This document shows positions 29,474 to 64,000 of a stretch of 64,000 nt of DNA, piece after piece. The stretch's first letter is position 1. Each line of letters starts with the position of its first letter. The translations under genes and the position numbers were made by a program. Below the pieces are notes generated by a model. The model made no database searches and was not told the origin of the DNA. It saw only the letters and a program-made list of their open reading frames with translations. Origin of the DNA: Nesterenkonia populi (lineage in GTDB: Bacteria > Actinomycetota > Actinomycetes > Actinomycetales > Micrococcaceae); contig NZ_VOIL01000001.1 in assembly GCF_007994735.1 (NCBI RefSeq), forward strand, positions 1,426,001-1,490,000, read 5' to 3'.

Positions 29474-31048
29474 TCATGCCAGGCCCCTGATCAGGTCTGC
29501 GCACCGCTCGCCGATCATCATGGTGGTGATGTTCGGGTTGACGGTCGTCAGCTCCGGCATCACCGAGGCGTCCGCCACGCGCAGGCCCTCCACGCCCTTG
29601 ACCTTCAGGTCCGGGGTCAGCGGGGACATGTCATCGTCGGCAGCGCCCATCCGGACAGTGCCGGCCGGGTGATAGACGGTGTTGTGAGTGCGGTGGATGT
29701 AGTCGGTCAGCTCATCGTCCGTCTGAGCGTCCTGGCCGGGGTAGAGCTCCTGCCCGGTCCACTCGGTCATCGCCGGCTGGGCGACGATCTCGCGGGCCAG
29801 CCGGATGCCGGCGATGGCGACGCGCATGTCGTGGCCCTCCGCGTCGCTGAAGTAGCGCGGGTCCACCATCGGCTTGTCGCGGTGGTCCTTGGAGCGCAGC
29901 TTCACGGTGCCGCGGGACTTCGAGTGGGTGATGTTGGGGGTCAGGACGAAGGAGTTCTCACTGGTGGGGTAGCCCTGACGCAGCGTGTGCATGTCGAAGG
30001 GCACGGAGCCGTAGTGCATCATCAGGTCGGGGCGGCCCGGCTTGTCGGGTGTGCCGGTCCCCTCCAGGGTGTCTGCGAAGATGCCGATCTCCCAGAACTG
30101 GTATCCCTCCTCGACCATGGGCTTCTCCGCGTCCCAGCCGATGACCACCTCCGGGTGGTCCTGCAGGTTCGCGCCCACGCCGGGGGAGTGGAACCTGGTC
30201 TCGATGCCGTGCTCTGCCAGGTGCTCCTTGTCACCGATGCCGGAGAGCATCAGCAGCTTGGGGGAGTCGATGGCGCCCGCAGAGAGCACGACCTCCTTGT
30301 CGGCGAAGATCTGCTGGGTCTTGCCGAAGGCATTGCCCACCACCTTCACACCGGTGGCCCGCTCGCCCTCGAAGGTGATCTCCTTGACCCAGGTGTCGGT
30401 CAGCAGGTGGAAGTTCTCCCGGTCCAGGATCGGGTGAATGTAGGAGACGGAGGAGGAGGCGCGGGTTCCGTCCTGCTTCCTGTTGATCTGGAAGAAGTTC
30501 GCGCCCTTGACGACGGTCTCACCGCTGTTGAACTCCACGCGCGGAATGCCGAGCTGCTCGCAGGCGTCCAGGACGGCCACGCCGCAGGGGTCGTGCGGGG
30601 GGATGTTCATCAGCTCCACGGGGCCTTCCTTGCCGTGGTGCTCGCCGTCGTTCTCGTTGGTCTCGAGACGCTTGAACAGCGGCCAGGTGGTGCCCGCGTT
30701 CCAGCCCTCGGCGCCCATGGCCTCCCAGTCGTCCATGTCCTCCTTGGGCGCCCAGAAGGCGATGCAGGAGTTGTGGCTTGAGCAGCCGCCGAGCACTTTG
30801 GCGCGGGCGTGGCGCATGAAGCTGTTACCGGTCGACTGCTCCTCGATCGGGTAGTCCCAGTCGTATCCGGACTCCAGCAGCTCCATCCAGCGGTTCAGCT
30901 GCAGGATGACGTCCTTGCCCTGGTCGGTGGGGCCGGCCTCCAGCAGGGCCACCTGAACGCTGGGATCCTCGGAGAGGCGGGCGGCCACGGCGGCGCCGGC
31001 GGAGCCGCCGCCGACCACCACGTAGTCGAAAGTCTTGTCTTCAGCCAT
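29474..31048 (-). CDS. codA: Choline oxidase (CodA-type GMC oxidoreductase)
   Basis: This flavoenzyme oxidises choline through betaine aldehyde to glycine betaine with oxygen, releasing hydrogen peroxide. The product has 524 residues and an N-terminal GGGSAGAAVAARL FAD motif. From my knowledge of Arthrobacter globiformis CodA it follows that enzyme closely, more than BetA. GGCSSHNSC holds the His that binds FAD covalently (His99) and Ser101. DHPE matches His310/Glu312, FWEIGIF Trp331, MMHYG His351, VPF Phe357, TVYHP Val464-His466, and NPN Asn510. It is the last gene of an operon after the BCCT transporter and betB. The labels choline dehydrogenase or GMC oxidoreductase would be the generic alternatives. 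Confidence 0.88.
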   Translation of the reverse strand: MAEDKTFDYVVVGGGSAGAAVAARLSEDPSVQVALLEAGPTDQGKDVILQLNRWMELLESGYDWDYPIEEQSTGNSFMRHARAKVLGGCSSHNSCIAFWAPKEDMDDWEAMGAEGWNAGTTWPLFKRLETNENDGEHHGKEGPVELMNIPPHDPCGVAVLDACEQLGIPRVEFNSGETVVKGANFFQINRKQDGTRASSSVSYIHPILDRENFHLLTDTWVKEITFEGERATGVKVVGNAFGKTQQIFADKEVVLSAGAIDSPKLLMLSGIGDKEHLAEHGIETRFHSPGVGANLQDHPEVVIGWDAEKPMVEEGYQFWEIGIFADTLEGTGTPDKPGRPDLMMHYGSVPFDMHTLRQGYPTSENSFVLTPNITHSKSRGTVKLRSKDHRDKPMVDPRYFSDAEGHDMRVAIAGIRLAREIVAQPAMTEWTGQELYPGQDAQTDDELTDYIHRTHNTVYHPAGTVRMGAADDDMSPLTPDLKVKGVEGLRVADASVMPELTTVNPNITTMMIGERCADLIRGLA

Positions 31049-31066
31049 GAATGTGCTCCTTCAGGT

Positions 31067-32545
31067 TCACTGGTTGGGCATGCGGAACCAGCCGGTGACG
31101 GCCGGTGCAGTGTTCTCGTAGATGTGCTTGGCCTCGCGGTACTCCTCGAAGCCGGCGATGCCGAGCTCGCGGCCCACGCCGGACTGCTTGAAGCCGCCCC
31201 ACTCGGCCTGCGGCAGGTAGGGGTGGTAGTCGTTGATCCAAATGGTGCCGTGGCGCAGGCGGGAGGAGACCCGGTGGGCGGTGCCGGAGGCGGAGGTCCA
31301 TACGGCCCCGGCGAGGCCGTAGACGGTGTCGTTGGCGGTCTCGACGGCTTCCTCCTCGGTGGTGAAGGTCTCCACGGTGATGACCGGGCCGAAGGACTCC
31401 TCGGTGACCACGTAGTCGCCGCGCTTGACGTTGTCGAGCACGGTGGGGGCGTAGAAGCACCCGTCCTTGTGCTCCTCACCGCCGAAGTGGCCGCCGGTGC
31501 GCAGCACGTTGCCCTCCCCGATGCCCTTCTGCACGTAGGCGTGGACCTTCTCACGGTGCTCGGCGCTGATCAGCGGGCCGGTCTCGGCGTTCTCGTCGAA
31601 CGGGCCGCCCATCCTGATGCTCTCGGCACGGCGGACCAGCTCGTCGACGAACTTCTCCTTGATGGACTCCTCGACGATCAGCCGCACGCCGGCCGAGCAG
31701 ACCTGCCCGGAGTCGACGAAGCCGGCGTTGAGGGCGTTGTCCACCGCAGCGTCGAAGTCTGCGTCGGCGAAGACCACGTTGGGGTTCTTGCCGCCCAGCT
31801 CCAGAGCGATCTTCTTCACCGTCTCGGAGGCTGAGGACATGATCTTGCGGCCGGTCACCAGGCCGCCGGTGAAGGAGATGAGGTCCACGTCCGGGTGAGT
31901 GGACAGGGGGGCGCCTGCAGTGGCCCCGGGGCCGGTGACCAGGTTGGCCGCACCGGCGGGCAGGCCCAGCTTGTCGAAGACGTCCATGATGAGGATGCCG
32001 GTGTGCGGAGTCAGCTCGGCGGGCTTAAGGATCAGGCTGTTGCCGGCGGCCAGGGCCGGGGCCAGCTTCCAGGCGGCCTGCAGCAGCGGGAAGTTCCAGG
32101 GGGTGATCATTCCGCAGACGCCGACGGGCTCGTAGACGACCTTGGAGACCACCGAGGGGTCACCGGCGTCGACCACGCGGCCGGCGTCCTGGTCTGCCAG
32201 CTTCGCGAAGTGCTTGAAGCAGGCGATGATGTCGTCCATGTCGATCTCGGCCTCGACCAGCCGCTTGCCGGTGTCGAGGGCCTCAGCGCGTGCGAACTCG
32301 TCCTTGCGCTCGGTGAGCTGCTCGGCGACCTTGAACAGGAAGTCGCCGCGCTCAGCGGCGGGGGTGTCTGCCCAGACTCGGGAGTCGAATGCCTTCTTGG
32401 CCGCTGCGATCGCGGCTTCGGCGTCGGCGGTGCCGGCCTCCGAGACGATGCCCACCTCGGAGCCGTCCGCGGGGCAGGAGATGGTGCGGGTCTCGCCAGA
32501 GGCGGCTGGGACCCACTGTCCGTCGATGAACAGGGTGGCGGTCAT
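31067..32545 (-). CDS. betB: Betaine-aldehyde dehydrogenase (aldehyde dehydrogenase superfamily)
   Basis: The enzyme oxidises betaine aldehyde to glycine betaine with NAD(P)+. The product has 492 residues, normal for the family. It shows the Rossmann-linked PWNFPLLQAAWKLAPALAAGN, ALELGGKNPNVVF with the general-base Glu, DSGQVCSAGVRL with the catalytic Cys, and EESFGPVITV. It is 18 bp upstream of codA and 127 bp downstream of the BCCT transporter on the same strand. Choline oxidase can do both steps alone, so BetB may pull the aldehyde that leaks from CodA, or oxidise a related aldehyde. Confidence 0.92.
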   Translation of the reverse strand: MTATLFIDGQWVPAASGETRTISCPADGSEVGIVSEAGTADAEAAIAAAKKAFDSRVWADTPAAERGDFLFKVAEQLTERKDEFARAEALDTGKRLVEAEIDMDDIIACFKHFAKLADQDAGRVVDAGDPSVVSKVVYEPVGVCGMITPWNFPLLQAAWKLAPALAAGNSLILKPAELTPHTGILIMDVFDKLGLPAGAANLVTGPGATAGAPLSTHPDVDLISFTGGLVTGRKIMSSASETVKKIALELGGKNPNVVFADADFDAAVDNALNAGFVDSGQVCSAGVRLIVEESIKEKFVDELVRRAESIRMGGPFDENAETGPLISAEHREKVHAYVQKGIGEGNVLRTGGHFGGEEHKDGCFYAPTVLDNVKRGDYVVTEESFGPVITVETFTTEEEAVETANDTVYGLAGAVWTSASGTAHRVSSRLRHGTIWINDYHPYLPQAEWGGFKQSGVGRELGIAGFEEYREAKHIYENTAPAVTGWFRMPNQ

Positions 32546-32672
32546 GGGAATGCTCCTGGGGTTGGGGCTTCGGTGAAAAGGTGCGCGGAAAGCGGGTCTG
32601 ACGCGTTTCCGGCGTCGTGCTCCACTCTAACCAGGGGGCACGACGCCGGAACTGCGGCTGGGGGAGGTTCGC

Positions 32673-34814
32673 CTAGTCCGACGGGCGGACGCGGGAGGAG
32701 TCCCAGTCGGTGGGAATCGTTCCAGTGTCCAGGGTCACAGAGGGACCGGGCGCCTGTTCGTTCATGGTCAGCACGGTCAGGTGCCGCTCGTAGGAGTCGA
32801 GCACATCGGTGATCAGCTGCTCCTTGGAGTAGCCGAAGATGTCATGCCCGGAGGAGCCGGTGGCGGAGAAGATCTCCACCCGGTGGTAGGTGTCCTCGGC
32901 ATTGCGGAAGTTCAGCGCGAAGCTGGGCACCGCGTACTCCACCGGGTAGGCCTGGTACTTGAAGACCGTCTCATCGCCGAAGTCCACGCGCAGGTCGATC
33001 TGCTGCAGGCCGGACTCTGGGACGGTGCCGCGCTCACAGATGACATCCGCGCCGGCGGCTGTCATCGCCTCGGCCACCTCTTCGATGGCAGGGATGGCGG
33101 TGCTGGTCAGGTACTCATCCACCTCATCAGGCGTGGGGTAGTGCATGTGGCGGCGCAGGCGCCGCTTCCACCGGCCCTGCCCGGGCTCCCCGGCCTCGGC
33201 GATGCGCTCCGACAGCGCAGAGGGAAGCTGGGCCTCCTTGGAGTCCTGGGCGTAGGTCTCCATGCGCAGGGCGCGCCAGACGCTGAGCATGAGCATGTAC
33301 AGCACCAGCGAGAGCGGCAGGCCCAGGATCACCGCGGCCATCTGCAGGGTATAGATGCCGTCCAGGGTCAGCATCACCAGGGTGAGCGCACCGATGATGA
33401 CTGACCAGAGGACACGCAGCCACGGCGGGCCGTCGCCGCTGCCCACGCTGGTTCGGGAGGTGAAGTTCGCCAGGATCAGGGCGCCCGAGTCGGCGGAGGT
33501 GACGTAGAACAGCAGGCCGACCAGCACCGAGACGCCCACGGCGAAGGTGGCACCGGGGTACTCGGCGATCAGCGCGAAGTAGCCCGAGCCCTCCGCGTCC
33601 AAGGCTGCGTCGGCGAAGTCAGCGTCGCCGCCCATCATCCGGGTGACGGTCGCGTTGCCGAAGATGGAGATCCACAGGGCGTTGAACGCGAAGGGAACCA
33701 GCAGAACGCCGATGATGAACTGGCGCAGGGTGCGGCCTCGGGAGATGCGGGCCAGGAAGAGACCCACGAAAAGGGACCAGGCCATCCACCAGGTCCAGAA
33801 GAAGATGGTCCACCATTCCATCCACTCCCAGGACAGCCAGTCCTCAGAGGTCTCGAAGGCGAACGTCTCGGTGAGCATGCCGGGGAACATGGCGAAGAAG
33901 TCGCCGATGTTCTTCACCAGCATGTTCAGCAGGGCCATGGTCTCGCCGGCGATGAGCACGTAGAGCATCAGGGCGACGGCGGCCAGCACGTTGAGCTCAG
34001 AGAGGCGGCGGATGCCCTTCTCCACGCCGGAGTAGGTGGAGAAGGTCACCACGATGGCCGCCAGCACGATCAGGGAGGCCTGCACCGCCGTCGTCGTCTC
34101 GATGCCGAACATGAAGTTCAGGCCGAAGGAGAGGAAGACCACTCCGATGCCGAGGCTGGTGGCGATGCCGAAGATGGTGCCCAGCACCGCGGCGATCTCC
34201 ACGGCGTCGCCGGCTGCGCCCTGGGCGCGCTTGCCGATGATCGGGTAGAGGGCGCTGCGGATCGCCAGCGGCAGGTGGTAGCGGTAGGCGAAGAGGCCGA
34301 AGGTCATTCCGGTCAGGGCGTACATGGCCCAGCCGGGGATGCCGTAGTGGAACATCGTCCACAGGGCGGCCTCCTCGGCGGCCTGCACCGACTCCGGCTC
34401 AGCGCCCCCGGGGCCCGCCAGATAGTTGGTGGCCGGGCCGACCACCGAGAAGAACATGAGGTCCACGCCGATGCCGGCGGCGAAGAGCATTGATGCCCAT
34501 GTGAACAGGCTGAACTTCGGCTTGGAGTGGTCCGGGCCCAGACGGGTCTTGCCGACTCGGGTGAACGCAATGATCAGCACGAAGACGACGATGATCGCCG
34601 CGGTCAGAACGAAGTACCAGCCCAGGTACTGGGAGAGCCACACGAATGCGCTCTCCATGGCGCCGTAGGTGGCGTCGGGCCAAATGGCGGCGATCGCGGT
34701 GAAGGCAACGATGATCACCGCGGAGGTGATGAAGACCGGCCAGTGGACTTGGGAGGCGGCAGGCTCGGCCGGCTTCGCCTCCGACGTATCAGTATCTGCG
34801 GGCGCGGACGCCAT
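32673..34814 (-). CDS. betT: BCCT family betaine/choline/carnitine transporter
   Basis: The product is a 713-residue secondary transporter, sodium- or proton-driven, for quaternary amines. It has 12 hydrophobic helices up to about residue 530, then a hydrophilic C-terminal region of about 180 residues. The family signature is plain: the Gly-rich stretch near IASLGIGVVF-type ATSLGIGVVFLSFGLNFMF, and WWTIFFWTWWMAWSLFVGLFLARISRGR-like helix 8 with its aromatic box. The long C-terminal tail is typical of osmotically regulated BetT-type carriers. The start is supported by AAAGGA 8 nt upstream. It heads the choline operon; choline is the likely substrate, with betaine possible. Confidence 0.92.
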   Translation of the reverse strand: MASAPADTDTSEAKPAEPAASQVHWPVFITSAVIIVAFTAIAAIWPDATYGAMESAFVWLSQYLGWYFVLTAAIIVVFVLIIAFTRVGKTRLGPDHSKPKFSLFTWASMLFAAGIGVDLMFFSVVGPATNYLAGPGGAEPESVQAAEEAALWTMFHYGIPGWAMYALTGMTFGLFAYRYHLPLAIRSALYPIIGKRAQGAAGDAVEIAAVLGTIFGIATSLGIGVVFLSFGLNFMFGIETTTAVQASLIVLAAIVVTFSTYSGVEKGIRRLSELNVLAAVALMLYVLIAGETMALLNMLVKNIGDFFAMFPGMLTETFAFETSEDWLSWEWMEWWTIFFWTWWMAWSLFVGLFLARISRGRTLRQFIIGVLLVPFAFNALWISIFGNATVTRMMGGDADFADAALDAEGSGYFALIAEYPGATFAVGVSVLVGLLFYVTSADSGALILANFTSRTSVGSGDGPPWLRVLWSVIIGALTLVMLTLDGIYTLQMAAVILGLPLSLVLYMLMLSVWRALRMETYAQDSKEAQLPSALSERIAEAGEPGQGRWKRRLRRHMHYPTPDEVDEYLTSTAIPAIEEVAEAMTAAGADVICERGTVPESGLQQIDLRVDFGDETVFKYQAYPVEYAVPSFALNFRNAEDTYHRVEIFSATGSSGHDIFGYSKEQLITDVLDSYERHLTVLTMNEQAPGPSVTLDTGTIPTDWDSSRVRPSD

Positions 34815-55461: not shown

Positions 55462-57669
55462 ATGAAGGATATCCGCATTCCCGGCGCACCCCAGGAAGAA
55501 CCTGTTCCCGAGGAGCAGCCCACCACGCCCGCCGCCCCGGCACAGCCGAAGCCCGACCAGCAGGGCCCGCCGGAGGTGAGTCCCAGCGGAGCCCCTGTGA
55601 AGGGAGCCAACGAGGCCCGGCGTCAGCAGGGCGAGTACCTCACCACCGCACAGGGAGCCCGTGTCCGCGACACCGACCACTCCCTGCGGGCCGGCAAGCG
55701 CGGTCCCACCCTCCTGCAGGACCACCACCTGCGGGAGAAGATTATGCACTTCGACCACGAGCGGATCCCGGAGCGTGCAGTGCACGCCCGCGGCGCAGGC
55801 GCCCACGGCATCTTCGAGTCCTACGGAACGGCCGGGAGCATCACCCAGGCAGGCTTCCTCGCCGAGAAGAGGACGACGCCGGTGTTCCTGCGGTTCTCCA
55901 CCGTGCTCGGAAGCCGCGGCTCCGCCGACACGGTGCGCGACACCCGCGGCTTCGCGGTGAAGTTCTACACCGACGAGGGGACCTTCGACCTGGTCGGCAA
56001 CAACATCCCGGTCTTCTTCATCCAGGACGGCATCAAGTTCCCGGACGTCATCCATGCCGCCAAGCCCCACCCGGACCGGGAGATCCCGCAGGCCCAGTCC
56101 GCCCACGACACCTTCTGGGACTTCGTCTCCCTGCACACTGAGGCGCAGCACCACACCATCTGGAACATGTCGGACCGCGGCATTCCGCGCTCCTACCGAA
56201 TGATGGAGGGCTTCGGCATCCACACCTTCCGGATGATCAGCGCTGAGGGCGAGACCTGCCTGGTGAAGTTCCACTTCAAGCCCAAGCTGGGGGTGCACTC
56301 CCTGACCTGGGAGGAGGCCCTGATGACCAACGGCCTGGACCCCGACTACCACCGGAGGGACCTCGCCGATGCCATCGAGAAGGGCGCCTGCCCCGAGTGG
56401 GAGTTCGGCGTGCAGGTCTTCCCGGACACCGAGGAGCAGACCTTCGAGGGGATCGACCTGCTCGACCCCACGAAGATCGTGCCTGAGGAGCTCGCTCCGG
56501 TGCACCCCCTGGGCAGGCTGACGCTGAACGCCAACCCCACCAACTACTTCGCCGAGACCGAGCAGGTTGCCTACCACCCGGGCCACCTGCCGCCGGGCAT
56601 CGACGTCACCGACGACGCCCTGCTGCAGGCCCGGCTGTTCAGCTACATGGACACCCAGATCACCCGTCTGGGCGGGCCCAACTTCGCCCAGATTCCCATC
56701 AACCGGCCCAAGAGCCCAGTCAACGACAACCACCGGGACGGCTTCCACCAGACCGCCGACCACACCGGGGTGGCCCCGTATCATCCCAGCAGCCTGAACG
56801 GCGGGAACCCTCATCCGGTCAACGACGCACACGGGGAGGAGCCTCCTGCCCTGATCGATGTGCCCCAGCAGGTCACCGGTCCGAAGATCCGCAGCAAGCC
56901 GGCCAGCTTCGATGATCATTACAGCCAAGCCACCATGTTCTACCGCAGCCTCACCGACACGGAGCGACAGCACATCGTCCAGGCGTACACCTTCGAGCTC
57001 GGCAAGTGCTACGACCTCACCATCCAGAAGCGGCAGCTGCAGTGCCTGGCCAACATCGACGCCGAGCTGGCGGCCGGCGTTGCCGAAGGTCTCGGCCAGC
57101 CGGTGCCTGAGCCCACCGAGCCTCCGGCTGAGGACGTGGTCGCCTCCCCGGCCCTCTCCCAGATCGGGCAGACCTGGCCGGCCGAGGGCCGGCTGGTCGG
57201 CGTCGTCGTGGACGAGTCCTCCGACGCAGGTGATATCCAGAAGGTCCGGGAGGACATCGACGCCCAGGGGATGGTGCCGCTGGTGGTGGCCCCCACCGGC
57301 GCGCCGCTGAGCACCGGCGTGCACCCGCAGCGCACATATCTCACGGCCCGCTCCGTCGAGTTCGACGCGATCATCTTCGCCACCGGACCCTCCCGGGGTG
57401 CCGCCGGCGCGGACCCGGCCGGCGACCAGAAGCTCGGCGACCCGGTCGGCGTCTCCAACGTGGACCCGCGCCTGACTCTGATGGCGGCAGAGGCCTACCG
57501 GCACTCCAAGGCGCTCGTCTTCGCCGAAGGCTCCGCGGTGCTCACCTCCGCCGGCATACGGGCCGGAGCCCCCGGAGTGCTGGTCGGCGACCCGCCCGCG
57601 CAGCTTGAGGAGCTCTTCGAGCTGATGGGCGCCCACCGAGTCTGGGAGCGGTTCGCCCCGGCCGGCTGA
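55462..57669 (+). CDS. katE: Large-subunit catalase (KatE/HPII type)
   Basis: This is a monofunctional haem catalase that destroys hydrogen peroxide. The product has 735 residues, the size of clade II catalases, with an N-terminal extension of about 75 residues. The core has ERAVHARGAGAHG with the distal His, VRDTRGFAVKFYTDEG, and NNIPVFFIQDGIKFPD with the distal Asn. ARLFSYMDTQITRLG carries the haem-ligand Tyr. A C-terminal flavodoxin-like domain (about residues 580-735; GRLVGVVVDESSD) is characteristic of HPII. GGAAGG before the ATG is the ribosome binding site. It ends 16 bp from the stop of the convergent sdaA gene. Confidence 0.95.
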   Translation: MKDIRIPGAPQEEPVPEEQPTTPAAPAQPKPDQQGPPEVSPSGAPVKGANEARRQQGEYLTTAQGARVRDTDHSLRAGKRGPTLLQDHHLREKIMHFDHERIPERAVHARGAGAHGIFESYGTAGSITQAGFLAEKRTTPVFLRFSTVLGSRGSADTVRDTRGFAVKFYTDEGTFDLVGNNIPVFFIQDGIKFPDVIHAAKPHPDREIPQAQSAHDTFWDFVSLHTEAQHHTIWNMSDRGIPRSYRMMEGFGIHTFRMISAEGETCLVKFHFKPKLGVHSLTWEEALMTNGLDPDYHRRDLADAIEKGACPEWEFGVQVFPDTEEQTFEGIDLLDPTKIVPEELAPVHPLGRLTLNANPTNYFAETEQVAYHPGHLPPGIDVTDDALLQARLFSYMDTQITRLGGPNFAQIPINRPKSPVNDNHRDGFHQTADHTGVAPYHPSSLNGGNPHPVNDAHGEEPPALIDVPQQVTGPKIRSKPASFDDHYSQATMFYRSLTDTERQHIVQAYTFELGKCYDLTIQKRQLQCLANIDAELAAGVAEGLGQPVPEPTEPPAEDVVASPALSQIGQTWPAEGRLVGVVVDESSDAGDIQKVREDIDAQGMVPLVVAPTGAPLSTGVHPQRTYLTARSVEFDAIIFATGPSRGAAGADPAGDQKLGDPVGVSNVDPRLTLMAAEAYRHSKALVFAEGSAVLTSAGIRAGAPGVLVGDPPAQLEELFELMGAHRVWERFAPAG

Positions 57670-57684
57670 GCCCGCACGGGCCGG

Positions 57685-59097
57685 TCAGCATTCGACGACG
57701 TTGACCGCGAGGCCGCCGAGGGCTGTCTCCTTGTACTTGTGGGACATGTCCTTGCCGGTCTCGCGCATCGTCGCGATCACCTCGGAGAGCGAGACCCGGT
57801 GCTCGCCGTCGCCCATCAGCGCCATCCGAGCCGCGTTGACCGCCTTGCCCGCGGCGATCGCGTTGCGTTCGATGCAGGGCACCTGCACCAGCCCGCCGAT
57901 CGGGTCGCAGGTCAGTCCCAGGCTGTGCTCCATGGCGATCTCCGCGGCGTTCTCGACCTGTGCGGCAGTGCCGCCGAGCACCTCGCACAGTCCGGCCGCC
58001 GCCATCGAGGATGCCGAGCCGACCTCGCCCTGGCAGCCCACCTCCGCCCCCGAGATCGAGGCCTGCTCCTTATACAGGACTCCCACGGCAGCGGCGGTCA
58101 GCAGGTAGGCGGTCACGATCGCTCGGCGGTCCTGCACTCGGGCGAAGCTGGCGCCGGGACCGTAGTGCGCGGCATAGAACCCCACCGCGGGAATGATTCC
58201 CGCCGCGCCGTTGGTGGGCGCAGTCACCACCCGACCGCCTGAGGCGTTCTCCTCATTGACCGCCAAGGCGGTGAGGTTCACCCATTCCTGCCAGTACGCG
58301 TAGCTGCGCTCGGAATCCTGCGCCGAGAGCCGGGCATGCCAGCCGGGCGCACGACGCCGGACATTCAGCCCGCCAGGCAGCGGCCCGGTCCGTGACAGCG
58401 CAGAGCTCCTGCAGTCCTCCATCACGGTCCAGATCCGCCAGATCCCCTCGCGCACCTCATCCTCAGTCCGTCGGACGGCCTCGTTGGCGAGCATGATCTG
58501 CGAGATGGGCAGACCGGTCTGGCCGCAGTGCGCCATCAGCTCCTCCGGGGAGGAGAACGGGTAGGGGGCCGGAGCCTCCCCGTCGGCGGAGACGCCGGCT
58601 TCGTCGGACTCGGCGACGACGAACCCTCCGCCCACCGAGTAGTAGGTGTTCTCCGCCAGCAGCATGTCCTCGGCGTCGAAGGCCTTCATCCGCATCGCGT
58701 TGGTGTGCCGCTCCAGGACCGTCAGCGGGCGCAGTGTGAAATCTTCGGCCCGCAGGGGCACAGGCTGTCCGAAGCCCAGCTGCTCGGCGAACCGAATCAG
58801 CCCGGCGGCCTGCATCTCGGCTGTCCGCTCCTCCGCCTGGGCGGGCAGCAGCTCCTCCGGGTCCCAGCCCTCCAGTCCGAGAAGCACCGCGGGAAAGGTT
58901 CCGTGTCCGGCGCCGGTCGCAGCCAGCGAGCCGAAGAGGTCCACCTCCAACCGGACGGCTCGGCCCGCCGTCCCGGAGGCAGCGAGCTCCTCGGCGACAA
59001 AGCGTCGGGCGGCGCGCATCGGCCCCACTGTGTGGGAGGAGGAGGGGCCGATGCCCACTCTGAAGAGATCGAAGAGACTGACCTGCATGGCGGACAT
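57685..59097 (-). CDS. sdaA: L-serine ammonia-lyase (iron-sulfur type)
   Basis: The enzyme converts L-serine to pyruvate and ammonia with a 4Fe-4S cluster. The product is a single-chain 470-residue form with the beta and alpha domains fused. Features are [21 protein letters not shown] at the N-terminus and [12 protein letters not shown] within the beta domain. The cluster cysteines lie in [16 protein letters not shown] (near residue 354) and [18 protein letters not shown] (near residues 395 and 406). It starts 13 bp after the Rieske oxygenase gene and is the last gene of that operon. Here it would drain serine formed from betaine-derived glycine and one-carbon units. Confidence 0.94.
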
Positions 59098-59110
59098 GGG
59101 GCGTTTTCGC

Positions 59111-60325
59111 CTAGGCCGCCGGGGCCGGAGCTGGAGGCGCTGCGGCGGAATCCTCAGCGTCGGCGTCGCGCCTCAGGCCGAGGGTCTGGTACCACCAGGC
59201 GTGGAACTCTTCGATGTGATGCTCACTGGGGACCAGGGCGCCCCCGCCGGCGTAGGCCTTGGAGCTCATCGAAGGCTGGGTGAGCTCGCAGGCCTCAAAG
59301 TCCTGCCGGTTCACCCGGTGGAACAGCTCCACCGATTTGGTGAGGTCCAGTTCGCCGGCCTCCGCCTTCGCGACCACCTCGGGAAGGAACAGCCAGTCGC
59401 ACACCACGGTGGTGCGGGACTCGGAGACCGGGAACATCCGGTGGATGATGACGTGGTCCGGCACCGTGTTGATGAACACTTGGGGCTTGACCGTGATCGC
59501 GTAGTACCTGCGATCCTGGCCCGGGGCGATCGAGGGCAGCTCTCCGAACCCGGACGCGGAGCCGTCGACCGTGAACCCGTGGACGTCCTGGCCGAAGTTG
59601 GAGCCGTGGACCTCGCCGTTCTTGCGCTGGGAGGCCAGCCCGTCGGCGAACTCGGGGATCACTTCTGTCAGCTCCGGATGGATGGTCGCGCAGTGGTAGC
59701 ACTCCATGAAGTTCTCGATGATGAGCTTCCAGTTCGCCGCGACGTCGTAGGTCTTCGTCTCCCCGCATCTGAGGCTCTCGATGCCGTAGTTGTCGATGGA
59801 CTCGATCTCCCCGAACCGGGTGCGGACCTCGCCGAGGACCGCCTCGTCGAAGTCTGGGGGCTCCTCGGCCAGGCACACCCACACGTAGCCGAGCCATTCG
59901 CGCACCTGAACGCGCCTGAGCCCATACTGCTGACGGTCGACATCCGGCATGGAGGTCAGGTTCGGTGCGGCCACCAGATCGCCCTCCAGAGCGTAGGTCC
60001 AGGCGTGGTAGCCGCACTGCAGGGTCCTGCTCCTCCCCTCGGCGGCGGTGCAGACCCGCATGCCCCGGTGGGCGCAGACGTTGAAGTAGGCCTGGACCCC
60101 GGCCTTGCGGGTGCGCACGACGATGACCTCCTCCCGGCCGATCCGCACGGTCTTCCAATGCCCGGCGGAGGGCAGGGCGTCGGCTCGCAGCACGCAGTTC
60201 CACATCTTTTCGAAGATCTCCGCCTGCTCCGAGGCGAAGATGCTGGCATCGGTGTAGGCGTGCCCGGGGGGCGTGGGACGCAGTGAGGAGCCGGGGAGGG
60301 GCTCATCCAGGTGGTCGATGATCAT
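59111..60325 (-). CDS. Rieske non-haem iron oxygenase alpha subunit, probable glycine betaine demethylase
   Basis: The product has 404 residues. The Rieske motif is CAHRG near residue 82 and CGYH near residue 105. The mononuclear iron site is in ENFMECYHCATIHPEL near residues 205-216, giving two His ligands. The bridging position is Glu (ECYHC), as in carnitine and betaine monooxygenases, where most ring hydroxylases have Asp. The expected reaction is oxidative N-demethylation of glycine betaine to dimethylglycine and formaldehyde. This is inferred from the ECYHC motif and the dimethylglycine oxidase gene nearby. Stachydrine or carnitine are alternative substrates. The ATG at 60325 is 10 bp after the reductase gene. 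Confidence 0.85.
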   Translation of the reverse strand: MIIDHLDEPLPGSSLRPTPPGHAYTDASIFASEQAEIFEKMWNCVLRADALPSAGHWKTVRIGREEVIVVRTRKAGVQAYFNVCAHRGMRVCTAAEGRSRTLQCGYHAWTYALEGDLVAAPNLTSMPDVDRQQYGLRRVQVREWLGYVWVCLAEEPPDFDEAVLGEVRTRFGEIESIDNYGIESLRCGETKTYDVAANWKLIIENFMECYHCATIHPELTEVIPEFADGLASQRKNGEVHGSNFGQDVHGFTVDGSASGFGELPSIAPGQDRRYYAITVKPQVFINTVPDHVIIHRMFPVSESRTTVVCDWLFLPEVVAKAEAGELDLTKSVELFHRVNRQDFEACELTQPSMSSKAYAGGGALVPSEHHIEEFHAWWYQTLGLRRDADAEDSAAAPPAPAPAA

Positions 60326-60335
60326 GGCGGTTCTC

Positions 60336-61574
60336 CTAGGCGGCGAGTGCGGGTGCGGTGCTGCGGATGCGACGCTTCTTGCGCCAGCGGGTGACGTCGC
60401 GCAGGCGGTTGATGCCGAGGATGCCGATCTCCTCCCCGTCCCGGGTGCAGCTGACCAGCAGGCTTCCCTCAGCCGCGGACCCCTCGAGCACGGTGGTGGT
60501 GTCGGCCAGGTGGATCCGCCCGGCGCCCTGGATGCGCAGGTCGAACTGGTCGGACCAGAAGTAGGGCTCCTGCAGGGAGGCGGGCTCAGCATCGGTGAGA
60601 GCGGCGGCGACGACGGCGGCTTCCTCCACGGCCTCCTGCCAGTGGCCCACCGGCCGCAGCCCTGAGGAGTGGGATGCCCATTGGGCGCAGTCCCCGGCTG
60701 CGTAGACGCCGGGAACGGCGGTGGCGCCGGTGTCATCGCAGAGCACCGCGGAGGTGTCCTCGGTGAGGGACACCCCGGATCCGAGCAGCCACTCCGTGCG
60801 GGGACTTGCGCCGATCGCGCAGATCACCACCTGGGCCTCGACTGTGGATCCGTCTGCCAGCAGCACCTCGTGCCCGTTCAGGGTGCTGCGGACCGCCTGC
60901 GCCCGGGCCGGGGGAGCGAACCGCACCCCATGGGCCTCGTGCGCGGCCCGGATCGCCCGGCCCACCGGTGTGCCGAGGCGTTTGGCGCCCGGGTTCTCCT
61001 CGCCGGCGGCGACGGTGACCGCGGCGGCGCCGCGCTGGGTGCAGGTCGCGGCAGCCTCCAGGGCGAGGAATCCTCCGCCCAGGACAGCGACGCTGGCCCC
61101 GGACAGGGGCGCGTCACGGAGGGCGAGCGCATCGTCCATGCTCCGCAGCACATAGGGGCGCACCGCGGCAGTCTCCTCGGCTGCGGTCGGTTCGGCGCTG
61201 GCCGCGGGCAGAGTCCTGGCTGAGGCGCCGGTGGTGATCACCACCGCGTCGGCCGGGTGGAAAGCACCGTCTGCGGTGTGCACCCCGAGGGGCTCGGTGC
61301 CGTCCGGGCTCCCGGAGAGCCCGACGACGCCGAGGCCGCTGACCCAGTCAGCCTCCAGAGGGTTCTCGGGGTCGTCCAGCAGCAGGTCCTCCTCAGCGAC
61401 CGCGCCGGTGAGGTATGCCTTGCTGAGGGCGGGGCGGTCGTAGGCCGAGCGGGTCTCCTCGCCGAATATGGTGATGGGGCCGCGGTGGCCGTGGTGCCGC
61501 ACGCCGCGGGCGGCGTGGTAGCCGGCGAGGCCGGCGCCGACGATGATCAGGTGCCCGTCTGCGGGGAGACTCAT
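60336..61574 (-). CDS. FAD-dependent ferredoxin reductase of the Rieske oxygenase system
   Basis: The product is a 412-residue glutathione-reductase-fold flavoprotein. The N-terminal LIIVGAGLAGYHAARGV binds FAD. The central SVAVLGGGFLALEAAA binds NAD(P)H, and VPGVYAAGDCAQW closes the FAD site. The C-terminal domain resembles BphA4/TodA reductases. It would pass electrons from NAD(P)H to the Rieske ferredoxin encoded just upstream. It overlaps that gene by 4 bp (ATGA). Its electron-transfer type differs from the fused flavin/iron-sulfur reductase (GbcB) of Pseudomonas betaine demethylase. Confidence 0.88.
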   Translation of the reverse strand: MSLPADGHLIIVGAGLAGYHAARGVRHHGHRGPITIFGEETRSAYDRPALSKAYLTGAVAEEDLLLDDPENPLEADWVSGLGVVGLSGSPDGTEPLGVHTADGAFHPADAVVITTGASARTLPAASAEPTAAEETAAVRPYVLRSMDDALALRDAPLSGASVAVLGGGFLALEAAATCTQRGAAAVTVAAGEENPGAKRLGTPVGRAIRAAHEAHGVRFAPPARAQAVRSTLNGHEVLLADGSTVEAQVVICAIGASPRTEWLLGSGVSLTEDTSAVLCDDTGATAVPGVYAAGDCAQWASHSSGLRPVGHWQEAVEEAAVVAAALTDAEPASLQEPYFWSDQFDLRIQGAGRIHLADTTTVLEGSAAEGSLLVSCTRDGEEIGILGINRLRDVTRWRKKRRIRSTAPALAA

Positions 61575-61918
61575 GCCAGCCTCACCCCCGGGGGAAGGTT
61601 CGGCTCCGCGCTGGAGAGCTCCACCCAGACCTCGCCGTCGCGAACCTCTGCGGTGTGTGCCCGGACGCCGCGCTTGGCGGGGGGCTGATCCACGTCCCCG
61701 GTGGTCAGGGAGAAGGTGGACTCGTGCAGCGGGCACTCCACGCGGCAGTCCTCCACCCAGCCGGCCGCCAGAGAGGCATCCTGGTGGGTGCAGGTGTCGT
61801 CCAGGGCGTGAACAGTGCCCTCCTCGGTGAGGAAGACGGCGAGGGGAGGGCTGACCGAGTCGATGCGCAGCCCTTCGCCAGGGGTCAGGTCATCCAGGGA
61901 GCAGATTCGGAGGCTCAT
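61571..61918 (-). CDS. Rieske-type 2Fe-2S ferredoxin
   Basis: The product is a 115-residue soluble electron carrier. The Rieske cluster ligands are Cys43, His45, Cys62 and His65 (CTHQ and CPLHES), a C-x-H-x16-C-x2-H pattern, with the fold length expected of toluene-dioxygenase-type ferredoxins. It is the first gene of a minus-strand operon: ferredoxin, reductase, oxygenase, sdaA. The ATG at 61918 is chosen from the family start. The longer frame from 61933 adds five residues and lacks support. Its promoter carries an IclR-type palindrome. Confidence 0.92.
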   Translation of the reverse strand: MSLRICSLDDLTPGEGLRIDSVSPPLAVFLTEEGTVHALDDTCTHQDASLAAGWVEDCRVECPLHESTFSLTTGDVDQPPAKRGVRAHTAEVRDGEVWVELSSAEPNLPPGVRLA

Positions 61919-61947
61919 GCTTGCCACCACCACACATTTCGTCTAAC

Positions 61948-61964
61948 GTTGCGGATTATGCAAC
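61948..61964. promoter_or_regulatory. IclR-type operator, site 1 (GTTGC-N7-GCAAC)
   Basis: GTTGCGGATTATGCAAC is a 17-bp dyad overlapping the probable -10 box of the Rieske operon. Its reverse complement matches the second site before the dimethylglycine oxidase gene at 15 of 17 positions. Binding here would block RNA polymerase. Confidence 0.7.
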
Positions 61965-61982
61965 ACCGTTCATGATGAACAA
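61955..61982 (-). promoter_or_regulatory. Promoter of the Rieske ferredoxin operon
   Basis: On the minus strand TTGTTC (61982-61977) and CATAAT (61960-61955) are spaced by 16 nt. The -10 lies inside operator site 1. A separate perfect 13-bp dyad, GTTCATGATGAAC (61968-61980), fills the spacer and may bind another regulator. Confidence 0.55.
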
Positions 61983-62092
61983 CAGTGCTGGGTGAAGTAT
62001 TGCGTCCTGCATATTGGGAGCGTCAAGCATGAACGGGTGATGTGCGGAAAATTTTACGAAAAAGAAACACAAAAAGAGGTCAGGTGTTCTGA

Positions 62093-62857
62093 ATGGCGGA
62101 GAATACGGGCAAGGAGGGCGGCACGGTGCAGTCGGTGGACCGGGCCGCAAAGATCCTCGAGCTGCTCCGCCGGGAGTCCGGGCTGACGATCAGCGAGATC
62201 GCCCGCCGGCTTCAGGTCCACCGCTCCACCGCCTTCCGCCTGCTGGCCACCTTGGAGGAGCATGACCTGGTGGAGCAGGAGCAGGTCCGCGGCGGGTTTC
62301 GGCTCGGCTTCGGAGTGCTTCGGATGGCCGGGGCGGTCACCGGCCGCATCGATCTGGCCCGGGATGCTCAGCAGTGCTGCGACGCCGCGGCTGAGGAGCT
62401 CAATGAGACCGTCAATGCGGCGATCCTCGACGCCGGAGCGGCGATGACCATCACCCAGACCGAGGGCAAGCGGATGATTGGCGTTGCCCAGCAGTACGTA
62501 GGCCAGCGGGGGCCGCTGCACGCCACGTCCACCGGCAAGGTGCTGCTGGCCCACGGCGACCCTGCCGAGCAGCGGCGAGTCATCGGCTCTGCGCTGACGG
62601 CCTACACCGCTTCGACGGTCGTGGAGACTGCTGGGCTTGAGGCTGAGCTGGAGAAGGTCCTCGAGCGCGGCTGGGCCTCAGCGGTGGCTGAGTGGGAGGA
62701 GGGGATCAACGCTGTCGCCGTCCCCATCCAGGATGCGGTGGGGCAGACAGTGGCCGCGCTCTCCGTCACTGCGCCGGCGTTCAGGCTTCCGGAGTCCAGC
62801 TTCGAGGCTCATGTGGGAGTTCTCCGCGAGGCCGCGGCATTTATTTCTGGCAGGTAA
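62093..62857 (+). CDS. IclR family transcriptional regulator of betaine degradation
   Basis: The product has 254 residues, the normal family length. The N-terminal winged helix-turn-helix is at about residues 12-75 (VQSVDRAAKILELL, then LTISEIARRLQVHRSTAFRLLATLE). The C-terminal effector domain includes GPLHATSTGKVLLAH and GINAVAVPIQD. It lies between the two catabolic transcription units, divergent from the Rieske operon and upstream of the dimethylglycine oxidase gene. The repeated palindrome in both promoters is its probable operator. The effector may be betaine, dimethylglycine or a related amine. Its own leader is unusually A-rich (62046-62077), with weak ribosome binding. Confidence 0.85.
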   Translation: MAENTGKEGGTVQSVDRAAKILELLRRESGLTISEIARRLQVHRSTAFRLLATLEEHDLVEQEQVRGGFRLGFGVLRMAGAVTGRIDLARDAQQCCDAAAEELNETVNAAILDAGAAMTITQTEGKRMIGVAQQYVGQRGPLHATSTGKVLLAHGDPAEQRRVIGSALTAYTASTVVETAGLEAELEKVLERGWASAVAEWEEGINAVAVPIQDAVGQTVAALSVTAPAFRLPESSFEAHVGVLREAAAFISGR

Positions 62858-62885
62858 AACTTTCTTCTTGACCCTAGGATCAGCT

Positions 62886-62913
62886 TTGTACGCGGACTCG
62901 GCCGTTCTAGTCT
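62886..62913 (+). promoter_or_regulatory. Promoter of the dimethylglycine oxidase gene
   Basis: TTGTAC (62886-62891) and TAGTCT (62908-62913) are spaced by 16 nt. Transcription would begin near 62920, just upstream of operator site 2, so a bound repressor would sit over the initially transcribed region. Confidence 0.45.
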
Positions 62914-62933
62914 TGTCGCATCATGAGCGCGGC

Positions 62934-62950
62934 GTTGCACAATACGCAAC
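62934..62950. promoter_or_regulatory. IclR-type operator, site 2 (GTTGC-N7-GCAAC)
   Basis: GTTGCACAATACGCAAC is a 17-bp dyad with the same half-sites and spacing as site 1. It lies 21 bp before the ATG of the dimethylglycine oxidase gene and immediately upstream of its AGGGAGGTG ribosome binding site. Confidence 0.7.
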
Positions 62951-62971
62951 GCACGATGGAGGGAGGTGCAG

Positions 62972-64000
62972 ATGGCACCACGAGTCGTCATCATCGGCCT
63001 CGGCGTAGTGGGCTCAGCCCTCGCCGACGAACTGGTCCTCAGGGGGTGGAATCAGGTCACCGTGGTGGACCAGGGGCCCCTCTACGTCACCGGGGGCTCC
63101 AGCTCCCACGCTCCCGGGTTCGTCTTCCAGACCAGCCCCAGCCGCAGCATGTCCCAGCTCGCGCAGCGCACCCTCGACAAGCTCGACGGACTCGAGGTCA
63201 GAGGAGAGTGGGTGATGAAGCGCACCGGCGGCCTGGAGATCGCCACTACCGCCGAGCGCGACCGGGAGCTGAGCCGCCGCCACGGCTTCGCCGACGCCTG
63301 GGGGATCCCCTCGCGTCTCATCGGCCCCGGAGAGATCGAGGCTCTCTGGCCTGACCTGGACACCTCCAGCATTCATTCCGCCCTGCACACTCCCACCGAC
63401 GCCGTCGTCAAAGGAGTGCGCGCCGTCGAGCTCCAGGCCCGACGTGCCCAAGCCGGCGGGGCCCAGATCCTGCCGAACACCAAGGTGGTCGGCATCGCTG
63501 TTCGCGGCTCCCGCACCACAGGGGTGGACGTCGTGCCTGTCGGTGCAGCGCCGGATGCCGAGCCGCAGCGCATTGAGGCAGACATCGTCATCGCTGCCGC
63601 AGGGCTCTGGGGACCCGGCATGGCAAGAGAGCTGCTCGGCTTTGAGATTCCGATGCTGCCGGTGGAGCACGGATTCGGCTTCAGCACATCCGTGCCCCAA
63701 CTGGCCGGCCTGGATGACCGCACCGAGACCGTCAGGCCCATGCTGCGTCACCAGGACCACGCCATGTACCTGCGCGAATGGGGGCGGCGCATTGCCGTCG
63801 GCGCCTACGAGCACCGGCCCCTGCCGGTGGAGCACCAGAAGCTCGCCACCGCGGAGGAGTTCGAGCGCACCGGCGTCCACCCGGCTGTCAAGCCCTTCAC
63901 CGAGGAGGACTTCGCCCCCACCTGGGCCGAGGCCCAGCGGCTGCTGCCCGGCATGCTCGGTGAGGGCACCGGGGTTCAGCTGGACCGTGCGATGTCCTTC
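62972..64000 (+). CDS. Dimethylglycine oxidase (partial, C-terminus outside window)
   Basis: This flavoprotein oxidises N,N-dimethylglycine to sarcosine with oxygen, giving hydrogen peroxide and passing the methylene group to tetrahydrofolate in a C-terminal domain. 343 residues are visible and the frame is open at the window edge. RVVIIGLGVVGSALADEL is the FAD motif. GGSSSHAPGFVFQTSPS carries the His that aligns with the covalent-flavin region of Arthrobacter globiformis dimethylglycine oxidase, which this sequence follows closely as I recall it. MLRHQDHAMYLREWGRRIAVGAYEHRP is another matching block. Sarcosine dehydrogenase-like relatives are the alternative. A strong ribosome binding site (GGGAGGTG) precedes the ATG. 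Confidence 0.85.
   Translation, partial: MAPRVVIIGLGVVGSALADELVLRGWNQVTVVDQGPLYVTGGSSSHAPGFVFQTSPSRSMSQLAQRTLDKLDGLEVRGEWVMKRTGGLEIATTAERDRELSRRHGFADAWGIPSRLIGPGEIEALWPDLDTSSIHSALHTPTDAVVKGVRAVELQARRAQAGGAQILPNTKVVGIAVRGSRTTGVDVVPVGAAPDAEPQRIEADIVIAAAGLWGPGMARELLGFEIPMLPVEHGFGFSTSVPQLAGLDDRTETVRPMLRHQDHAMYLREWGRRIAVGAYEHRPLPVEHQKLATAEEFERTGVHPAVKPFTEEDFAPTWAEAQRLLPGMLGEGTGVQLDRAMSF

Follow-up and report, generated by a model that had tools for sequence, protein, structure and literature searches.

Which enzyme takes the first methyl group from glycine betaine (GB), a widespread osmolyte, and by what electron chain is it served? The question is raised by a locus at the right end of a 64,000-base stretch of DNA (hereafter the window), which covers bases 1426001–1490000 of contig C1 in a 2.55-Mb genome whose closest named protein relatives are mostly from Nesterenkonia. 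Here a minus-strand unit (61933–57685), followed in the direction of transcription, consists of genes for a Rieske ferredoxin, a flavin adenine dinucleotide (FAD)-dependent reductase of the BphA4/TodA type, a Rieske oxygenase and an L-serine dehydratase. Divergent from it lie genes for an IclR-family regulator and then N,N-dimethylglycine oxidase (DMGO). Inspection of the letters and their translations (the sequence-only reading) had taken this arrangement for a GB-degradation locus with a split electron chain and serine dehydratase at its end. The coordinates and identities of all six reading frames held up, each matching its family. We conclude that the locus is very probably an aerobic GB catabolic regulon with a split electron chain, a proposal now supported by linkage to DMGO in related genomes, a sarcosine oxidase gene just beyond the window and an operator-like site shared by the two units.

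The linkage was assessed in a survey of 149 genomes of the family, own genome included, evenly drawn from a larger group (match threshold E 1e-60). The oxygenase was found in 26 of them and DMGO in 79. All 26 genomes with the oxygenase also encode DMGO, compared to 53 of the 123 genomes without it (Fisher p = 1.3e-8, an overstated value, since relatives are treated as independent), and in 25 of the 26 the two genes are no more than 5 kb apart. Because the oxygenase is always accompanied by DMGO and nearly always lies close to it, GB demethylation is the best reading of its function. Among the seven genomes of the genus listed, own included, five carry both genes and two carry neither.

A second collection comprised the best 80 of at least 594 stretches encoding a relative of the oxygenase; many are cut by contig ends, and Streptomyces are numerous among them, so that they do not amount to 80 independent cases. 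In these loci tblastn (at least 50 bits) found DMGO (45/80), a monomeric or heterotetrameric sarcosine oxidase (31/80), purU (33/80), serine dehydratase (14/80), a BCCT transporter (21/80) and an IclR regulator (69/80). One or more of DMGO, sarcosine oxidase, purU, sdaA and folD were present in 53 of the 60 full-flank loci, i.e. those 19 kb or longer. Ten short stretches from the genome of the window (3.2–4.5 kb each, several of them fetched as BCCT or Rieske matches) contained a BCCT gene in three cases, one weak ferredoxin match and none of the other query genes, a sample too small to serve as a control.

Proposed electron partners and the operator-like palindrome

The features of a three-component system are present at the locus, namely a separate Rieske ferredoxin and a BphA4-type FAD reductase. 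Solved relatives of the reductase include TodA, the reductase of biphenyl dioxygenase (BphA4) and putidaredoxin reductase; those of the ferredoxin include the ferredoxins of carbazole, biphenyl and toluene dioxygenases, among others. The minus-strand unit is tightly packed, with an ATGA overlap between ferredoxin and reductase genes followed by gaps of 10 and 13 bases. A ferredoxin gene was found in 67 of the 80 related loci, a reductase gene in 71 and both in 65; 52 of the 60 full-flank loci carry both. A GbcB-like reductase, for which the reductase adjoining a Paracoccus GbcA-type oxygenase was used as a stand-in, was matched in none of the 80. The contrast with GbcB drawn from the sequence stands as far as the separate ferredoxin and reductase are concerned, but the arrangement is not peculiar to this locus. 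Since some loci, and a Priestia record described below, are without these partners, ferredoxin and reductase may be exchangeable. In two Streptomyces loci (L031 and L057, about 10.2–11.9 kb) a reductase gene and a GcvH-like gene come straight after the oxygenase gene.

Both divergent units are preceded by a GTTGC-N7-GCAAC palindrome, GTTGCATAATCCGCAAC before the ferredoxin gene and GTTGCACAATACGCAAC before the DMGO gene. When the window was searched for GTTGCNNAATNNGCAAC and at most two mismatches were allowed, only these two places matched (four strand matches; shuffled sequences gave 0.48 on average, and 0 of 100 gave four), and the same two were the only places in the entire genome at one mismatch or fewer. 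Because the strict pattern was derived from these two sites, it was bound to recover them; what is informative is the absence of the pattern elsewhere and the recurrence of the arrangement. Across the 80 related loci there are 102 occurrences of TTGC-N7-GCAA, compared to 0–11 at spacings of 3–6 and 8–11; a control pattern, CGTT/AACG, also peaks at spacing 7, with 26 occurrences (3–21 at other spacings). Within 300 bases 5′ of a ferredoxin, reductase, oxygenase, IclR or DMGO gene, GTTGC-N7-GCAAC was found exactly in 42/80 loci and with up to one mismatch in 64/80, while at other spacings the same half-sites were found in 0–1 and 1–10 loci, respectively. With two mismatches allowed the count is uninformative (73/80 at spacing 7, 26–50 at other spacings). 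The looser TTGC-N7-GCAA is not enriched genome-wide, occurring at 7 places per strand compared to 17 for the reversed control, and therefore the strict form and its conserved place alone carry the weight. The occurrence of GTTGC-N7-GCAAC before both units and its recurrence in related loci are new here. A second short palindrome, GTTCATCATGAAC (61968–61980), lies just 5′ of the ferredoxin site.

Since the palindromes sit just 5′ of gene starts, their place would fit a repressor. A simple scan found no sigma-70-like promoters between 61900 and 63000. For this IclR-type regulator the best NCBIfam model was that of BhcR (NF045644), which gave 163.4 bits, below the cut-off of 350. The Pseudomonas pathway is regulated by GbdR, a protein of AraC type, according to excerpts of PMC12093977.

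Class, signature residue and branch of the oxygenase

The oxygenase is the only match to PF00848 (Rieske oxygenase alpha subunit) in the genome. It reads ENF-M-ECYHC, with Phe206 and a bridging Glu208, and E208, C209 and C212 are invariant across 30 aligned rows, in keeping with the bridging Glu of group V and with a Cys-X-X-Cys next to its iron site. These features of group V quaternary-amine oxygenases, the Cys-X-X-Cys in some members, are described in excerpts of PMC7948474 and PMC10952381. The ECYHC motif pointed out by the sequence-only reading is present; it is a mark of quaternary-amine oxygenases as a whole rather than of GB enzymes, and two residues before its Glu stands Phe. The predicted fold is closest to stachydrine demethylase Stc2, with CntA second, as expected for group V, though the model was built on an alignment with six GbcA-type rows, which may pull it toward Stc2. 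Sequence identity is 30–31% to Stc2 and 24–26% to CntA.

Several tests separate the enzyme from GbcA. With the NCBIfam GbcA equivalog model it scored 200.7 bits, far under the 670-bit cut-off; the GbcA-type proxies, likewise below 670, reached 528.5 (Paracoccus), 492.7 (Sinorhizobium Stc2) and 465.6 (Caballeronia). At the position of CntA Tyr203 the window enzyme has Phe206, and Phe rather than Asn is found in 80/80 enzymes of the related loci. Among the proteins listed, Phe occupies this position in the 120 nearest to the window enzyme and Asn in 120 of GbcA type. In a published scheme, as given in a part of PMC7948474, Phe two residues before the bridging Glu assigns an enzyme to the carnitine/choline/benzalkonium group and not to GbcA; with Phe206 the window enzyme has the aromatic residue expected of clade Va (CntA, choline and benzalkonium enzymes). 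By the tests run here, on score, branch, signature residue and reductase, the enzyme is not a proper GbcA.

In the tree, ten GbcA-type and Stc2 rows form a branch of their own without the window enzyme (support 100/97, or 100/100 once the longest rows are removed). In this tree GbcA-type proxies stand for the proven enzymes of Pseudomonas (GbcA) and Chromohalobacter (BmoA), and its deep branches are long and unsure. A sister group made up of CntA and three more long branches is only weakly placed (82/46), and a tree constrained to unite the window clade with CntA alone was not rejected in the approximately unbiased (AU) test (p = 0.194). An oxygenase from a Yoonia plasmid (L101:4839-6191), which scores 298.6 bits with the GbcA model, falls on the GbcA/Stc2 side (99/96) in spite of a Phe at the substrate position, so that the tree is not neatly divided by this residue. 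An initial clade test, which joined the window clade to the ten GbcA-type/Stc2 rows without Yoonia, had rejected a sister relation (AU p = 0.00634). Because Yoonia groups on the GbcA side, the test was repeated with it included, and the constrained tree then fitted as well as the best one (AU p = 0.433), so that the rejection is gone. The claim is therefore limited to the window clade lying outside the GbcA/Stc2 branch, not to its being unrelated; it may be the sister of that branch. Within these bounds, the oxygenase belongs to group V (quaternary amines), in a clade separate from that of the GbcA-type enzymes, and its substrate position is occupied by an aromatic residue.

Relatives of the oxygenase were also seen further afield. 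On a Priestia megaterium plasmid from a hypersaline site (L009:4281-16804) a DMGO homologue (34%), SolA (48%), an oxygenase 41% identical to ours and a BCCT transporter stand in a row, followed by a flavoprotein of another kind and then by glycine cleavage genes. On a Haloterrigena plasmid (L099:1105-9811), in what may be an archaeal betaine locus, genes for a BCCT transporter and a homologue of DMGO (36%) accompany that of a group V-like oxygenase (SNYSEC). Such distant relatives, encoded next to DMGO homologues in Priestia and a haloarchaeon, suggest that the aromatic type may extend beyond Actinomycetota. In Nesterenkonia pannonica (L019:2719-10155) matches to sarcosine oxidase, DMGO and the oxygenase are split over several frames, through assembly errors or decay.

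Proposed pathway and surrounding genes

From the identities and linkage of these genes we infer the substrate, electron flow and regulation as follows. NADH would reduce the FAD reductase, from which single electrons would travel through the Rieske ferredoxin to the Rieske cluster and the mononuclear iron within the oxygenase. Using O2, the oxygenase would remove one methyl group of GB as formaldehyde, leaving dimethylglycine. DMGO would convert this to sarcosine, placing the methyl carbon onto tetrahydrofolate, and monomeric sarcosine oxidase would yield glycine. Glycine would be turned into serine by GlyA, encoded elsewhere, and serine into pyruvate and ammonia by SdaA. The adjoining catalase gene and a mycothiol-dependent formaldehyde dehydrogenase encoded in the genome could account for disposal of H2O2 from the oxidases and of formaldehyde. 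The IclR protein would control both divergent units through GTTGC-N7-GCAAC.

Coordinates of the features are collected in the table. The oxygenase start was placed at 60325 (404 aa) rather than at 60736, the start of the longest open reading frame, on the basis of the length of P0002 and of a ribosome-binding site, AGGAG, preceding the ATG. The choice of ATG 61918 for the ferredoxin was judged from local sequence and relatives. DMGO, followed beyond the window, has a full length of 836 aa with DAO, FAO_M, GCV_T and GCV_T_C domains and matches the DMGO structure 1pj5 with 718.6 bits. Sarcosine oxidase and glyA had both been looked for to the right of the window: a monomeric sarcosine oxidase is indeed there, and glyA is not, the single match to serine hydroxymethyltransferase (SHMT) lying at C1:2318215. 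The sarcosine oxidase has full-length matches to 7exs (305.4 bits) and 1el5 (238.6 bits). Among NCBIfam models it passes that for N-methyl-L-tryptophan oxidase (432.3 bits, cut-off 257) and falls below the soxA_mon amino oxidase cut-off (259.7 bits, 479.65 needed). The genes that follow are unrelated (DUF885, YitT and alcohol dehydrogenase, then pheST and arg genes).

Table. Features of the window and its right flank (window positions unless C1 is given)
Feature	Position	Strand	Evidence
L-serine ammonia-lyase SdaA, 470 aa, serine to pyruvate; last gene of packed unit	57685..59097	-	TIGR00720 615.2 bits, cut-off 345.1
Rieske oxygenase, 404 aa, proposed GB demethylase	59111..60325	-	Pfam Rieske and Ring_hydroxyl_A
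FAD ferredoxin reductase, BphA4/TodA type, ATG 61574	60336..61574	-	Pyr_redox_2 and Reductase_C; structure matches
Rieske-type ferredoxin, GTG 61933, likely start ATG 61918	61571..61933	-	Pfam Rieske; NF007422 115.1 bits, cut-off 113
Operator-like palindrome GTTGCATAATCCGCAAC, 29 bases 5′ of likely ferredoxin ATG	61948..61964	-	Conserved spacing in related loci
IclR-family regulator, 254 aa	62093..62857	+	IclR_C 120.8 bits, HTH_IclR 60.1 bits, above Pfam cut-offs
Operator-like palindrome GTTGCACAATACGCAAC, directly 5′ of DMGO start	62934..62950	+	Pattern search
N,N-dimethylglycine oxidase, GTG 62966 or ATG 62972	62966..64000, continuing to C1:1491476	+	DAO domain within window
Monomeric sarcosine oxidase, outside window, one base after DMGO	C1:1491478-1492650	same direction as DMGO unit	Structure matches
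Choline-to-GB genes, about 23 kb from locus	29474..34814	-	Profile scores
BetT choline transporter	32673-34814	-	NF007399 815.4 bits, cut-off 695
Betaine-aldehyde dehydrogenase-like	31067-32545	-	582.1 bits, below cut-off 668.6
Choline dehydrogenase/oxidase-like (BetA)	29474-31048	-	384.2 bits, below cut-off 732.1

The genome also encodes four BCCT transporters, GcvT and, besides SHMT, a mycothiol-type formaldehyde dehydrogenase (626.3 bits, cut-off 512.9). The choline genes of the window were without the shared palindrome in the window pattern search. With the genes of this genome a route from choline to pyruvate can be written, each of its steps inferred from family membership. A corrinoid MTTB route as the first step was considered and dropped, there being no PF06253 match in the genome. 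A large HPII-type catalase (55462–57669; 823.5 bits, below the 1102-bit equivalog cut-off) is convergent with serine dehydratase and could remove H2O2 produced by DMGO and sarcosine oxidase. A katE gene stands beside the locus in only 1/80 related loci (L019), and the catalase is therefore not counted as a conserved part of the system.

Competing readings and known systems

Several observations weigh against a GB regulon. The signature residue, Phe, is that of carnitine/choline-type enzymes, unlike GbcA, and no clade member with a proven substrate was found among the literature matches listed. DMGO is common in genomes without the oxygenase (the 53 of 123 mentioned above), and in one genome with both (G110) the two genes are 430 kb apart. 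Seven of the 60 full-flank loci (L025, L044, L045, L051, L074, L077 and L080) are without DMGO, sarcosine oxidase, purU, sdaA and folD, and in a Nonomuraea record (L010) the oxygenase stands alone among the query genes. Both electron partners are absent from 3 of the 60 full-flank loci (7 of all 80), the Priestia record has no match ranking as either, and outside Nesterenkonia the reductase is merely about 32–42% alike.

One alternative is that the true substrate is a different quaternary amine (choline, carnitine, proline betaine or a choline analogue), DMGO and sarcosine oxidase handling its products or separate substrates. Phe stands at the position that marks carnitine, choline and benzalkonium enzymes in the CntA paper, the tree allows the grouping with CntA, and the window also holds an operon for taking up and oxidizing choline. 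We nevertheless consider this improbable: the DMGO linked to the oxygenase in 25 of 26 family genomes takes the direct product of a single GB demethylation, and conversion of choline to GB has candidate enzymes of its own here, which do not share the palindrome. That the ferredoxin and reductase serve some other enzyme, while the oxygenase draws electrons from a general pool, is the least credible of the alternatives. The packed operon, the presence of both partners in 65/80 loci and the single oxygenase alpha gene in the genome for them to serve speak against it, although one or both partners are absent nearby in 8 of the 60 full-flank loci and Priestia has a flavoprotein of another kind.

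The oxygenase could also be a GbcA in substance, a sister branch of the same chemistry with merely a different reductase. The tree joining the window clade, GbcA-type enzymes, Stc2 and Yoonia agrees with this, as do the Yoonia enzyme itself, whose Phe beside GbcA-side grouping means that the residue alone is no separator, and a fold and sequence slightly nearer Stc2 than CntA. Relatives carry the label "glycine betaine catabolism A" in some pipelines, and bmoA/bmoB are listed by KEGG number in a paper on a Paenarthrobacter genome (PMC11945447). Set against these are the score of 200.7 bits, compared to 466–528 for the GbcA-type proxies, the separate branch of the ten GbcA-type/Stc2 rows, and Phe in all 80 locus enzymes and the 120 nearest proteins listed where 120 listed GbcA-type proteins have Asn. 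We regard this alternative as very unlikely; the oxygenase of the GB regulon probably works like GbcA, in spite of failing the GbcA tests run.

That Rieske enzymes degrade GB is already known, and so is the lower path through DMGO, sarcosine oxidase and serine dehydratase. With GbcA-GbcB and BmoA-BmoB of Pseudomonas and Chromohalobacter the locus shares the proposed reaction, the oxygenase architecture and linkage to later demethylation steps. It differs in an enzyme outside the GbcA-type proxy branch, in Phe in place of Asn, and in having the Rieske ferredoxin and the FAD reductase as separate proteins. Where Pseudomonas, in the excerpts of PMC12093977, has the AraC-type GbdR, DgcAB and SoxBDAG, this locus has IclR, DMGO and a monomeric sarcosine oxidase. 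CntA/YeaW carnitine monooxygenase, 24–26% identical to the window oxygenase, uses a single reductase, CntB; according to PMC10952381 it yields trimethylamine and malic semialdehyde. Stc2 of Sinorhizobium (3vca, 4qup) has Asn at the substrate position and lies on a separate branch. The three-component aromatic dioxygenases (biphenyl, toluene) have the same types of ferredoxin and reductase; in contrast to them, the window oxygenase is of the quaternary-amine group and alpha only, with no beta subunit gene in the unit.

The Arthrobacter dimethylglycine and sarcosine loci that Meskys reportedly described in 2001 are said to lead through DMGO, sarcosine oxidase and serine dehydratase to pyruvate, the step from GB to dimethylglycine reportedly not being identified there. 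On this account the lower route is the same, and the window adds a linked candidate for that step. Among the matches listed in our literature searches, with many subscription papers outside their scope, neither a tested member of the clade nor a GB demethylase of three components nor an operator of this kind appeared. Growth on GB is reported for Arthrobacter sp. Rue61a, whose genome-predicted pathway is called "incomplete" in the excerpt of PMC3534580. Through the partners, linkage and operator-like site that it retains, the window oxygenase family is a concrete candidate for the missing GB step in such actinobacteria.

More tentatively, this family may constitute a second kind of GB demethylase across Actinomycetota: a group V enzyme in which an aromatic residue holds the ammonium, as in CntA, compared to the carboxylate-on-iron mode described for Stc2. 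It would draw its electrons from a ferredoxin and a BphA4-type reductase, each a separate protein, and be under the control of IclR acting on GTTGC-N7-GCAAC. We had thought this evenly balanced and now put it somewhat below that, because adding Yoonia to the clade test removed the rejection of a sister relation with GbcA. If the enzyme is a betaine demethylase with Phe, the published rule that sorts quaternary-amine oxygenases by the residue before the bridging Glu would fail.

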